Assembly (NCBI RefSeq): GCF_008035925.1
Contig: NZ_CP036264.1
Coordinates: 4,524,402-4,588,401 of the forward strand
Direction: 5' to 3'
DNA length: 64,000 nucleotides
DNA from: Stieleria maiorica
GTDB taxonomy: Bacteria > Planctomycetota > Planctomycetia > Pirellulales > Pirellulaceae
Shown piece by piece: positions 37,368 to 41,977 of the stretch; position 1 is the first letter of the stretch; each line of letters starts with the position of its first letter. The translations under genes were made by a program, and so were the position numbers. The notes beneath the pieces are model-generated. The model was not told the DNA's origin. It searched no databases and saw nothing but the letters and a program-made list of their open reading frames with translations.

Positions 37368-37562
37368 TCACTTGGTCAGCACCAGCTTGCCCTGTCGGGT
37401 GCTCTGCAAACGATACAGCTTGCCCTCGTATTCGATCCAAACTTCATCCCCACAGCGTGCCAAGTCCACAAAACGCACAATCTTCCGGAGCGAATTCTCC
37501 AAATTGGCTCCGGCCAGCTCGGACAGGCTGGAGTCTGGTTTGTCGGCAGAATTGGAAGACAT
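37368..37562 (-). CDS. hemP: Hemin uptake protein HemP, short form
   Basis: 64 residues. The C-terminal half DEVWIEYEGKLYRLQSTRQGKLVLTK closely follows the HemP core (I-x-H/Y-x-G-x-x-Y-x-L-R/Q-x-T-x-x-G-K-L-I/V-L-T-K). HemP proteins are small cytosolic factors linked to haem acquisition, usually iron-regulated. The ATG at 37562 has no clear ribosome site; an in-frame ATG about 32 codons upstream exists but would add an unconserved tail. Two Fur-box-like palindromes lie upstream at 37609-37625 and 37783-37799. No TonB-dependent haem receptor is near; the divergent neighbour is a PEP-CTERM/DUF1559 gene. Confidence 0.8.
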   Translation of the reverse strand: MSSNSADKPDSSLSELAGANLENSLRKIVRFVDLARCGDEVWIEYEGKLYRLQSTRQGKLVLTK

Positions 37563-37608
37563 CGGGTAGGCCAAAAACGGGGGGGTGAGTCGCTGCGCGG
37601 CAACATTG

Positions 37609-37625
37609 TTGCGAGTCAGTCTCAA
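37609..37625 (-). promoter_or_regulatory. Fur-box-like palindrome, proximal to hemP
   Basis: TTGCGAGTCAGTCTCAA. In the 7-1-7 layout it matches 11 of 14 positions of TGAGAAT-N-ATTCTCA by my count. It lies 46 bases upstream of the hemP start. A smaller palindrome, GCAACATTGTTGC, overlaps it at 37600-37612. Confidence 0.4.
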
Positions 37626-37782
37626 TAACAAACCCGCATTTTTACTTTTTGTCAACATTCGCTGCGAAAACTTTTTACCCCCATTTTTGCGGTGCGATCC
37701 GAATTCCCGGAAACAGAGCATGACAATTTTGTCCAAAGGATGGGCTTTCGCACCGCCTGGAGTCCGATTACATTTTCCGTTG

Positions 37783-37799
37783 TTGAGACCTGATCTCAA
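37783..37799. promoter_or_regulatory. Fur-box-like palindrome between hemP and the PEP-CTERM/DUF1559 gene
   Basis: TTGAGACCTGATCTCAA: perfect 6-base arms around five bases, the spacing of Fur operators (TGAGA-N5-TCTCA). It matches 10 of 14 positions of the 7-1-7 consensus by my count. It is 220 bases from the hemP start and 172 bases from the divergent GTG, so it could serve either gene. Confidence 0.45.
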
Positions 37800-37971
37800 T
37801 AGCTTTTGCAGGTAGCAAGCCAGGCCATTCGCCGCCGCGTGGGCGTCTTTGGAGAGACGCGTTTTCACTGCGGTCGCGATCACGACCCAGCGAGCAAGAA
37901 CGAAGCTTCGACCCCCGTCGCACTGGGCGACGTGCGGGCAGTTTTTGCTCTTTGCATCGTGAGGTTTAACT

Positions 37972-39750
37972 GTGCATTGGTGTCAGCGTGTTTTCTTGCC
38001 GGTCGCCATCGGCATTGCGTCGATCGCAACCGCGTCGGTTGCCCGAGCAGCCATCTTTACTCCCGGCGATGCGGTGCCGGATGTCAACGGCGAAGTTTTC
38101 ACTTGGTCCGAATCCCAGGCCAACAGCAGTTTCGTGTTTTGGGACACGTTCGATGGATTCGCAGGCAGTACCCTGCCCGGGTTTCTTCCTGCGGGCACAT
38201 CGCCGACGGCCAATGACAGCTTTGGCGATGGTGGACCGATCAGTTCGCTGACGTTTGAATCCAATCAATCGTTGGCGTCCAGCGGGAACGCCTATGGAGG
38301 CTTGTTCGGCCCCGGAGACAGTTCCAGCTTTCTGACCGATGCCTTCGCGACCGTCCGTTCGGGGACCTCCGGCGGCGGGTTCACGCGGATCGTCGCCCAG
38401 TTTGAAACCTTGGGATCCGAACTCGATTACTCATCAGTCTTGCTGAGCGCTTCGGCGGCGACCGCTGGAACGATCGCGCCGAGTTTCGTGATCGAAACCG
38501 CCCGCGTCTCTTTAGGCGGAACCTTCGGCGGTGAAGGCGTCAGCTTTCTCGCACTGTGGGACTTGAATTCGTCACAACCGGAGTATCGATTTGATTTCAA
38601 CGCGCAATCCACCAGCATGTCGCTGGACCGGTTTCGCGTCGACACGTTCACACAAAGCACGCCCTTCGTCACACCCTCCGCAGTGCCTGAACCGGGAAGT
38701 TTGGCTGTGTTGGGCATGGTTGCCGGAGGTCTGGTCCTTCGACGTCGACGGCGTACAAGTCGTCGTGGAGTCAGCGGATCGGTTTCCCCTTCAGGAAACG
38801 TCTTGACGCGATCGTCCCGCCATGCATTCACGCTCGTGGAGCTGCTGGTTGTGATCGCGATCATCGGAATCATGGTCGGTTTATTATTGCCCGGTGTCCA
38901 AGCGGCACGGGAAGCGGCGCGACGGATGTCGTGCAGCAATAATTTGAAACAAATCGGATTGGCGATGCACAACTACGACAACGTCAACGGTTGTTTGCCG
39001 CCGAGTGCGATGGGGATTCGCGTCGGCGGGACCAGCCAACGCCCAGTCCACCGGGCAGGATTGACAGCGTTCGTTGCGATTTTGCCCCATGTGGAAGAAG
39101 ACGCCTTGTTCGCGGAGTTTGATCTGAATGCCGATGCGTGGGCGGCGCAAAACGAAACGCCGGCCAAGAAAACGCCGGAAGTCTATTTGTGCCCATCGAT
39201 GTCGTTGCCCGATAGCGGCGGCCCCGCCAATGGATACTCCAGCTATGCGATTTCCACCGGTACAAAAAAGTATCGCAATCAAATGCACAATGGTGCCATT
39301 GTGGACGCGATGAACGTGTTTCAAAGCGAACGCGTGTTGGCGGGAATCTCCGAGGCATTGTCTTGGTTGTCCTGGGTTGATGTGGACGACATCTCCAATG
39401 CCGACGGAACGTCGAACACGCTGTTGGCCGGTGAGTTTGGTGTCCAGGTTCGAGAAACGTCTTCACTGCCGTTTCCCTATCCGGGATCCGGCGGCCAGAG
39501 CGCGGGCAAATGGGCGATCAGTTACCCCTATCATTCCACCGCATCAACGTTCGGCAGTTTCAATGCCAAGACGATTTCGCTGTTCGACATCCCGTCTTAC
39601 GAATCATTTCGCGGCCCGCATGCAGCCGGCGTTCAGTTCGTTTTGAGCGACGGCAGCGTGCGTTTCTTGACCGAATCGGTCGATGCGGTCACCTTGCATC
39701 GATTGACCAGTCGCAATGATGGCGAAGTACTGGACAAGGCTCCCTGGTGA
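37972..39750 (+). CDS. PEP-CTERM protein fused in frame to a DUF1559 (prepilin-like) protein
   Basis: 592 residues with no stop between two complete modules. Residues 1-27 are a Sec signal peptide ending ASVARAA. Residues 28-237 are a beta-rich secreted domain typical of PEP-CTERM proteins. VPEPG at 238-242 is followed by a hydrophobic helix and an RRRRR cluster, the whole sorting tag that normally ends a protein. After a basic linker comes a type IV prepilin-like leader, [20 protein letters not shown] (F286), and a DUF1559 domain to the end, with [26 protein letters not shown] and a terminal [15 protein letters not shown] start with GAGG 7 bases upstream. An internal TTG at 38803 with AGGA before it could start the second module separately. 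Confidence 0.85.
38793..38796 (+). promoter_or_regulatory. Internal ribosome-site candidate before the DUF1559 module
   Basis: AGGA with a 6-base spacer to an in-frame TTG at 38803, eight codons before the F of the prepilin leader. It would let the DUF1559 half be made as a separate protein. Confidence 0.35.
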
Positions 39751-39765
39751 TTCACGGCGTTTCTG

Positions 39766-40203
39766 ATGCAAAGTCACATTGTCCAGCGAGCGACCGCCTT
39801 CGGTTTAACGCTGTTGACGGTCCTGGTTGGATGCTCTTCGCCCACCCGGCCATCGGTTTCGGCCAGTGGTACGGTTGTCGTCGACGGCGAACCCTTGTCG
39901 GGGGCCGTGATTACGTTGGAACCGATGCGTGGCACCACCGGTCCCAACGCATCAGTACCAGTGTTTGACGGGGCCTTCGAGATCCCCGCGAGCGCCGCGT
40001 TGCACGGTGGCACGTATCGGGTTCACGTGGCAATGATCCCCGCCGAAATACTCGCCGGTCTTCCCGACCCGCAATCCAAATCGCTGCCGCCCGCCGGTGC
40101 CGTCATCGATCCTGCATTCGACGCCGATAGCAACCTGACCTGCCAATTGATCCCTGATCAAACGAACACGCTGACATTCGCAGTTAAGTTCTTAAAACGA
40201 TGA
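39766..40203 (+). CDS. Small lipoprotein with a transthyretin/Cna-like fold
   Basis: 145 residues. LTLLTVLVGCSS is a lipobox, giving a lipid-anchored cysteine at about residue 23. The mature part starts SASGTVVVDGEPLSGAVITLEP, the pattern of carboxypeptidase-regulatory-like beta-sandwich domains, and continues with GGTYRVHVAMIP. In planctomycetes such small lipoproteins commonly follow DUF1559 genes, as here (15 bases after). The same gene pairing occurs at 53845-55280. Function unknown. Confidence 0.75.
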   Translation: MQSHIVQRATAFGLTLLTVLVGCSSPTRPSVSASGTVVVDGEPLSGAVITLEPMRGTTGPNASVPVFDGAFEIPASAALHGGTYRVHVAMIPAEILAGLPDPQSKSLPPAGAVIDPAFDADSNLTCQLIPDQTNTLTFAVKFLKR

Positions 40204-40264: not shown

Positions 40265-41977
40265 ATGAAGTCCATCCCAATGAAACCTCTGTCGTTGATC
40301 CGTCGCACCGTCTTTCTTCAAGCAGCCGCCATCGCGTCCTGCTTACTCATTTCCCCGACCGCCAAAGCGCACATGGCCTGGCTGGCGACCGATGACCAAG
40401 GACATGCAATCCTGTGGTTTGGCGAATCGCCGCAAGACCGCACGTACCACATGCCCGCCCCCATCGCAGGGATCAAATTGTCCGGCGGCCCCAAGAGCAT
40501 CACGACGGAAGCGGTCGACACCGAGACGCTGATCGGAATCCGCAGCATCAACCCGCTAAACGCGGCCGATGAGATCGCCGGTCACGTCACCTATGGTGTG
40601 TATCACGGGACAAAACTGACGTATCACGTCGAACATTTACCCCTGCGGGCGCCGAAACAATGGCCAGTTGAACCGCGATCCGACGCACCATTGCAATCAA
40701 TCGTTACCCTGTCATCCGGCGGCGGTTTACAGGTCACGATTGTTGCCAATGGTAAACCCGCCGAAGACGTCCAAGTGAAACTCTTGGGCGCCCACGGCGA
40801 AGAAAAAGCATCCGCCAAGACGGATATCGCGGGGATCGTGACGTTCAAACACGATGTCGTCCAGCCCGGACTGAATGCAATCGTCGCCGGCATGACTGAC
40901 GAACACGGAAGCGGAACACTTGACGGCAACAAATACAACAGCACTACCGATTACCTGACGGCGACCTTCCGAATCCCCGGAGAAGTCCCCGCCGCGAAGC
41001 CTGCCGAAAAACAACCCCAACGCCCCGACATGGAAACCGATCGCAGCGCATCGATCGTTCCGTCCGAGCTGCCGGAGCTGCCCGAAGAGCTGACCAGTTT
41101 TGGTGCGGCGATCGCCGGTAACACGCTTTACGTCTACGGTGGCCACACCGGCAACGCCCACTCCTATTCGACAGAAGAACAGTCTGATCGGTTTTGGGGC
41201 TTGGACCTGTCCAAGGGAAAAGCCGGATCGTGGAAGCAGTTGCCCGGTGGCCCATCGCTTCAAGGTCTGGCCTTGGTCGCTTATAAGAACCGTCTGATTC
41301 GGATCGGAGGATTCACGGCGGTCAACGGCCTGGGCGAAGAGCATGACTTGCGCTCACAAGCCTCCGTCACCGAGTACAACCCCGAAACCGAGACGTGGAC
41401 GGATTTGCCGGAACTGCCCGAAGCCCGTTCTTCGCTGGACGCGGCCGTCCTGGGGGACCACGTTTACGTATTCGGCGGTTGGCGTCTGGATGGACAGAGC
41501 AGCGAGAGTCAATGGCATCAGACCGCATGGTCGCTTGACTTGAGTCAGCCCGAAGCCGCGTGGCAGCCGGTCAAAACGCCACCGTTCAAACGCCGAGCCA
41601 TCACCGTAGCCGCGCACGACGAAAAACTTTTCGTCATCGGCGGGATGAATTCCGATGGGAAACCCACCACGCGTGTCGACGTCTATGATCCCGAGCAACA
41701 AACCTGGAGCGAGGCGCCGTCGCTGCCGGGCAGCGGGATGGCGGGTTTCGGGGCAGCCTCGTTTGCAACCGGCGGCAAGCTCTACGTCAGCACCATGGAC
41801 GGATTGCTGCACCGACTGTCCGGCGATGGTCAACGTTGGGAAACGATTGCCAAAGGCCCGCTGGCACGGTTCTTTCACCGCATGTTGCCGACCGGCGAGA
41901 ACACGCTGCTGATGGTCGGGGGAGCGAACATGCAGATCGGAAAGTTCACCCGCATCGATCAGATTCAAATTCACTAG
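40265..41977 (+). CDS. Secreted protein with a DUF4198/NikM-like domain and Kelch repeats
   Basis: 570 residues. A signal peptide ends near PTAKA (about residue 37), and the mature protein starts HMAWLATDDQGHAILWFGES, similar to the N-terminus of DUF4198/NikM-type metal-uptake proteins, where an N-terminal His binds metal. A beta-sandwich (SGGGLQVTIVANGKPAEDVQVKLLGAHGE) completes that half to about residue 240. The C-terminal half has Kelch blades with V-Y-G-G-H / V-F-G-G-W / VIGGMNSDG / MVGGANM motifs (TLYVYGGHTGN, HVYVFGGWRLDG), at least four. A metal or sugar ligand for the propeller is possible. It follows the lipoprotein by 61 bases. Confidence 0.8.
   Translation: MKSIPMKPLSLIRRTVFLQAAAIASCLLISPTAKAHMAWLATDDQGHAILWFGESPQDRTYHMPAPIAGIKLSGGPKSITTEAVDTETLIGIRSINPLNAADEIAGHVTYGVYHGTKLTYHVEHLPLRAPKQWPVEPRSDAPLQSIVTLSSGGGLQVTIVANGKPAEDVQVKLLGAHGEEKASAKTDIAGIVTFKHDVVQPGLNAIVAGMTDEHGSGTLDGNKYNSTTDYLTATFRIPGEVPAAKPAEKQPQRPDMETDRSASIVPSELPELPEELTSFGAAIAGNTLYVYGGHTGNAHSYSTEEQSDRFWGLDLSKGKAGSWKQLPGGPSLQGLALVAYKNRLIRIGGFTAVNGLGEEHDLRSQASVTEYNPETETWTDLPELPEARSSLDAAVLGDHVYVFGGWRLDGQSSESQWHQTAWSLDLSQPEAAWQPVKTPPFKRRAITVAAHDEKLFVIGGMNSDGKPTTRVDVYDPEQQTWSEAPSLPGSGMAGFGAASFATGGKLYVSTMDGLLHRLSGDGQRWETIAKGPLARFFHRMLPTGENTLLMVGGANMQIGKFTRIDQIQIH

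Follow-up and report, generated by a model that had tools for sequence, protein, structure and literature searches.

The closest described systems come from Proteobacteria, where haem-receptor genes activated by HemP/HmuP carry a site in their 5′UTR termed the HmuP-responsive element (HPRE; Amarelle 2019, as quoted in PMC9131926). The HPRE of C. violaceum chuR is CCCGCAAGCCAGCCGACAGCCAGCCAGCG, and action in the 5′UTR through the HemP-family protein ChuP has been proposed (de Lima et al. 2022, PMC9131926). Fur-controlled hemP promoters are also documented, as in S. maltophilia hemP-hemA (PMC9241770) and C. violaceum chuPRSTUV (PMC9131926). Planctomycetes encode dozens of copies of another protein family, DUF1559, with 74 in R. 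baltica (PMC2754498).

The locus analysed here brings these elements together. The window, a stretch of 64,000 nt, covers bases 4524402-4588401 of the 9.89 Mb single-contig genome of the planctomycete Stieleria maiorica (NZ_CP036264.1). We consider it likely that the 410 bp that separate hemP from a divergent surface-protein operon form a two-layer iron switch, with Fur acting on both promoters and HemP acting through the leader of the surface operon.

On one side of the gap lies hemP (37368-37562, minus strand), encoding a small regulator of 64 aa. It belongs to the HemP/HmuP family, since the Pfam hemP domain (PF10636) scores 41.2 bits against a cut-off of 25 and the protein ends in KLVLTK, in line with the C-terminal KLxLTK of the family. 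Fur box 1, TTGCGAGTCAGTCTCAA, is located 46 bp before hemP at 37609-37625. A putative hemP promoter, TTGACA-17-TTTGTT (37627-37655, minus strand), was assigned by inspection and ends one base before box 1. Its -10 hexamer is weak (3/6) and a consensus promoter scan did not pick it up; the positions are putative because comparison with relatives gave no settled common -10/-35 pattern near the box. Fur box 2, the perfect palindrome TTGAGACCTGATCTCAA (37783-37799), heads the leader of the divergent operon, the same placement that it has before the leader element in relatives. The 5′ leader itself (37801-37907, plus strand) is a diverged HPRE-like element that retains the architecture in its minimum free energy (MFE) fold.

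The first gene behind this leader (37972-39750, plus strand) is a single fused ORF of 592 aa for a PEP-CTERM and DUF1559 (pseudopilin-like) surface protein, matching PF07596, PF07963 and PF07589. A PEP-CTERM signal at aa 237-261 is followed in the same frame by the prepilin/DUF1559 protein, and an internal start within the ORF is possible. At a related locus, L117, the two parts are separate ORFs, so the window has either a fusion or a lost stop. Two further plus-strand ORFs would belong to the same operon: a small lipoprotein-like ORF (LTVLVGC; 39766-40203), which matched no Pfam family and has a 60% identical neighbour in the L117 operon, and a gene for a secreted protein identified by domain search as DUF4198-like with a Kelch beta-propeller (40265-41977). 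At L117 the PEP-CTERM, DUF1559, lipoprotein, Kelch and hemP genes all run in one direction behind a single box.

The two palindromes had been proposed as Fur boxes by a first-pass annotation, and both are present at the coordinates given above. That annotation counted 11 (37609) and 10 (37783) matches to the 7-1-7 consensus; our recount against TGATAATNATTATCA lowered these to 9 and 8 of 14. Its TGAGA-N5-TCTCA layout holds for the site at 37783 and fails in the left half of the site at 37609, which reads TGCGA. Against the E. coli 7-1-7 consensus neither site is remarkable, as 336 15-mers in the window score at least 8, and this yardstick was dropped as too weak to part the sites from background. 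If the 8-9 of 14 matches were all the evidence, the palindromes could be chance sequences without function. We consider this scarcely credible: the exact pattern TTGMGA-N5-TCTCAA occurs at two places in the 64-kb window against 0.01 expected, a number reached by none of 100 shuffles, and a box is kept before hemP in many genera. In the whole 9.89 Mb genome the exact pattern occurs at only four places, and a reversed control pattern gave no match in the same sequence. Besides 37609 and 37783, the exact sites lie before feoAB and before a leader RNA at 6666571; the former, TTGAGAATCACTCTCAA at 1548935, is 62 bp before feoA. A palindromic Fur-type sequence is thus over-represented relative to chance.

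The genome also encodes a protein that could read these sites. Its Fur-family protein L003 has Fur as the best PDB match (3.7e-21) and matches the NCBIfam Fur equivalog models below their cut-offs. There is a second Fur-family protein, L004, and genomes of the family encode proteins of 220-270 aa with a FeoA domain, which might be DtxR-like; a Zur/PerR-type or DtxR/IdeR-type protein might therefore read the boxes in place of Fur. We hold this to be quite improbable, given that the feoAB and hemP partners are iron genes, that L003 matches Fur best and that the window's motif resembles Fur boxes and not DtxR boxes. The four exact sites in the genome, together with the conservation described below, support the reading of both palindromes as predicted Fur binding sites.

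In order to determine how widely the box is kept, hemP loci were collected from a large share of the 108 matching genomes of the family. The HemP proteins were of different kinds, and type A, the window's (...RCGDEVWIE...YRLxxTRQGKLILTK; n = 39), was compared with the 32 others (type B). An upstream box matching TTGAGA-N5-TCTCAA at 10 or more of 12 positions was found before 30/39 type A hemP genes, in many genera, and before 4/32 of the others, compared with 11 of 1420 mononucleotide shuffles (0.8%); the genomes are related, so these counts are not independent. A wider HMM-based extraction gave upstream boxes for 31/38 type A genes versus 26/74 of the rest. Boxes were also seen upstream of a third planctomycete kind of HemP, ending in LIL(Q/H/Y/F)K (L054, L062, L064, L124, L146, L147 and others), and the leader element was not detected at those loci.

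The first-pass annotation had named enrichment of the motif before other iron genes as a check on the Fur reading, and the partners of the box bear it out, in this genome by the feoA site and across the family as follows. Among 30 perfect palindromes in 60 family genomes, with partners counted by hand from coordinates, 8 are no more than about 260 bp from feoA and 5 stand before hemP. Others flank DUF1559 genes (L231, L233), a PEP-CTERM-like ORF (L230), a DUF4198 gene (L221) and a gene for a small protein (L227). This small protein (L227:2724-3098) and its homologue in the window's genome (L031:5591-5949) both have a Fur-type box just upstream, are 36% identical between two genera and gave no Pfam or NCBIfam match; the pair is a candidate new Fur target. 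About 35 kb away in the window's genome (L029:8827-12423; genome 4596826-4600422) there is another hemP, accompanied by TonB and by a TonB-dependent receptor in divergent orientation. No such box was found at this canonical hemP-TonB-receptor locus (best 8/12), and its regulation seems to be different.

As a type of site, a Fur box in front of hemP is nothing unusual. As in the Proteobacterial promoters, a palindromic Fur-type operator precedes a HemP-family gene in a genome that encodes Fur. The present locus differs in having two operators in a divergent region, in its lineage motif, TTGAGA-N5-TCTCAA, in belonging to the phylum Planctomycetota, and in its partner, a DUF1559/PEP-CTERM/Kelch operon and not a TonB receptor. 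This partnership recurs. A DUF1559 or Kelch/DUF4198 homologue adjoins 23/39 type A hemP genes, nearly always divergently, versus 4/32 of the non-type-A genes; a divergent TonB-dependent receptor stands beside 14/32 type B genes. Kelch/DUF4198 homologues are found beside hemP at L109, L117, L122, L127, L128 and L184. For 16/39 type A genes no DUF1559/Kelch homologue was seen within the stretch examined, and at L119, the closest hemP of the same genus, the box is present with no divergent DUF1559 gene and no leader element. The suggestion that the PEP-CTERM/DUF1559 gene takes part in an iron response is strengthened by these neighbourhoods and by boxes before other DUF1559, PEP-CTERM and DUF4198 genes, and gene order and motif together support a divergent surface gene belonging to the same response as hemP. 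Since the surface proteins occupy the place of the TonB haem receptor in Proteobacteria and at other planctomycete hemP loci, the DUF1559/PEP-CTERM/Kelch proteins probably serve haem or iron capture, judging by context alone.

A common leader element emerged on the divergent side when the boxes were aligned, before the published HPRE was brought in. Behind the Fur box, relatives have GCAAGCCA-hairpin-AGCCAGCCA and then a DUF1559, PEP-CTERM or DUF4198/Kelch gene. The consensus is AGC(A/C)AGC(C/G)A, a hairpin of variable length and AGCCAGCCACG; the element lies 16-49 nt past the Fur box at about 30 loci and is also found behind boxes at loci that have no hemP, before the same kinds of genes. From 31 copies we propose a structure with a closing helix, two GC steps parted by 2×2 internal loops, and a hairpin. 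In this structure 75% of cells pair, compared with 66 ± 1.3% in shuffled sequences and 27-44% when the structure is slid, and two-sided changes number 51 versus 26.6 ± 4.4 in shuffles, although the more complete structure was drawn up manually on the basis of individual folds, so the pair counts lean towards it. The four GC pairs are invariant and consequently uninformative by themselves; RNAalifold on a MAFFT alignment recovered these four alone. An Rfam search with the planctomycete copies returned chance microRNA matches only and no family above chance.

A covariance model, R1, found 22 copies in 9/41 genomes, one to three per genome. Six matches were outside the training set; in three of them a box stands 20-34 nt upstream, where about 1% would be expected, and DUF1559 follows most of the six. 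A general leader of DUF1559 genes was rejected, as the element occurs just 1-3 times per genome where it occurs at all. The window's genome contains good copies at 6666571 and 7651053 (49 and 46 bits). At the latter (L037:5054-5144), one of the loci that have no hemP, box and leader element precede a DUF1559 gene.

The published HPRE CCCGCAAGCCAGCCGACAGCCAGCCAGCG has the same core as the planctomycete element, and the same GC-step fold is predicted for it. In planctomycete relatives the core GCAAGCCA...AGCCAGCCA is found in leaders of genes linked to HemP, and these leaders share with the HPRE, as far as it is described in the account quoted in PMC9131926 (Amarelle 2019), the 5′ leader position, the partnership with hemP, Fur control and the predicted fold. 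They differ in the next gene, which encodes a DUF1559, PEP-CTERM or DUF4198/Kelch protein and not a haem TonB receptor, and in a hairpin of 8-70 nt with a closing helix; the window's copy differs further in having AGCGAGCAA as its 3′ arm. We scanned about 85,000 genomes with the pattern AGCAAGCCAN{4,34}AGCCAGCCACG and obtained 70 loci, 23 planctomycete and 47 other. In the planctomycete set hemP is divergent at 180-420 bp in 19/23, and a DUF1559 gene comes next in 19/23, mostly with a box. Named records with such a locus belong to the Pirellulaceae (Rhodopirellula/Allorhodopirellula, Roseimaritima, Stieleria and Mariniblastus). Outside planctomycetes, the alphaproteobacterium Tardiphaga (L296) has a divergent hemP, the element and then a TonB receptor, Stappia (L325) has a divergent hemP beside the element, and in L356 a TonB receptor directly follows it; a TonB receptor after the element was seen only in the proteobacterial L296 and L356. 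R1 scores these three at 20-24 bits, and all the other non-planctomycete matches were taken as chance.

HmuP/HemP proteins have been described as DNA-level activators in Bradyrhizobium and Burkholderia, and the leader might accordingly be a DNA site at which HemP or another factor binds the direct repeats AGCMAGCCA. This is unlikely in our judgement, because hairpins of very different sequence and length are kept in the spacer with covariation, the element sits downstream of the box, in the region where transcripts are expected to begin, and C. violaceum ChuP did not bind DNA probes (PMC9131926). We favour an RNA structure. Under the switch that we propose, iron-loaded Fur on 37609-37625 and 37783-37799 would close both divergent promoters, and iron shortage would lift Fur and open them. 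HemP, made from one side, would then raise DUF1559/PEP-CTERM/Kelch expression by acting on the surface operon's 5′ leader, whose counterpart in relatives is the structured equivalent of the HPRE.

The second layer depends on the window's diverged leader still working. Its 5′ arm, AGCAAGCCA at 37814-37822, is perfect, whereas the 3′ arm is AGCGAGCAA in place of AGCCAGCCA and the hairpin is long. The MFE fold contains the closing helix (37801-37806/37902-37907) and the GC steps (37890-37891 and 37894-37895). Pair probabilities are 0.8-0.9 for the helix and about 0.36 (0.35-0.38) for the GC steps, and the stability of the fold does not exceed that of shuffled sequences (z -0.5). R1 did not detect this leader (1.7 bits), which places it outside the HPRE model, and the GC steps are lost from the centroid fold. 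These last two results suit an arrangement in which ordinary boxes place hemP and the divergent operon under Fur alone, the leader having decayed here and HemP being inactive on it. We give this arrangement a substantial but less than even chance. The perfect 5′ arm, the well-paired closing helix and the presence of the GC-step pairs in the MFE fold speak against it, as do the same variant arms kept at similar spacing by L117. From these models, HemP action on the window's surface operon is possible.

Its partner operon and HPRE-like leader set the locus apart as a new form of the HemP circuit: a predicted HemP/HPRE circuit of Planctomycetota whose output would be DUF1559-type surface proteins. 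For a broader claim we judge the chances to be even: that a planctomycete Fur-plus-HemP/HPRE cascade drives DUF1559/PEP-CTERM/DUF4198-Kelch proteins and not a TonB receptor, that part of the DUF1559 family serves haem or iron acquisition, as would follow if these surface proteins are the cascade's output, and that the HPRE is an ancient structured RNA common to Proteobacteria and Planctomycetota. To our knowledge, DUF1559 proteins have no known role. A Fur box and a HemP target element before a defined DUF1559 subset would supply low iron and haem as a condition, HemP as a regulator and a site that can be mutated, and would tie this huge family to iron or haem use. For the HPRE, the analysis supplies a structural model and extends its range beyond Proteobacteria. 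At one locus (L030:8572-8880) a Fur box and a good HPRE-like leader (49 bits) are followed solely by an ORF of about 43 aa for a secreted peptide (MHFKQIVSVLLLAIFLLSLSVFSAVHAGKG...), which may be a remnant or else a small peptide under regulation.
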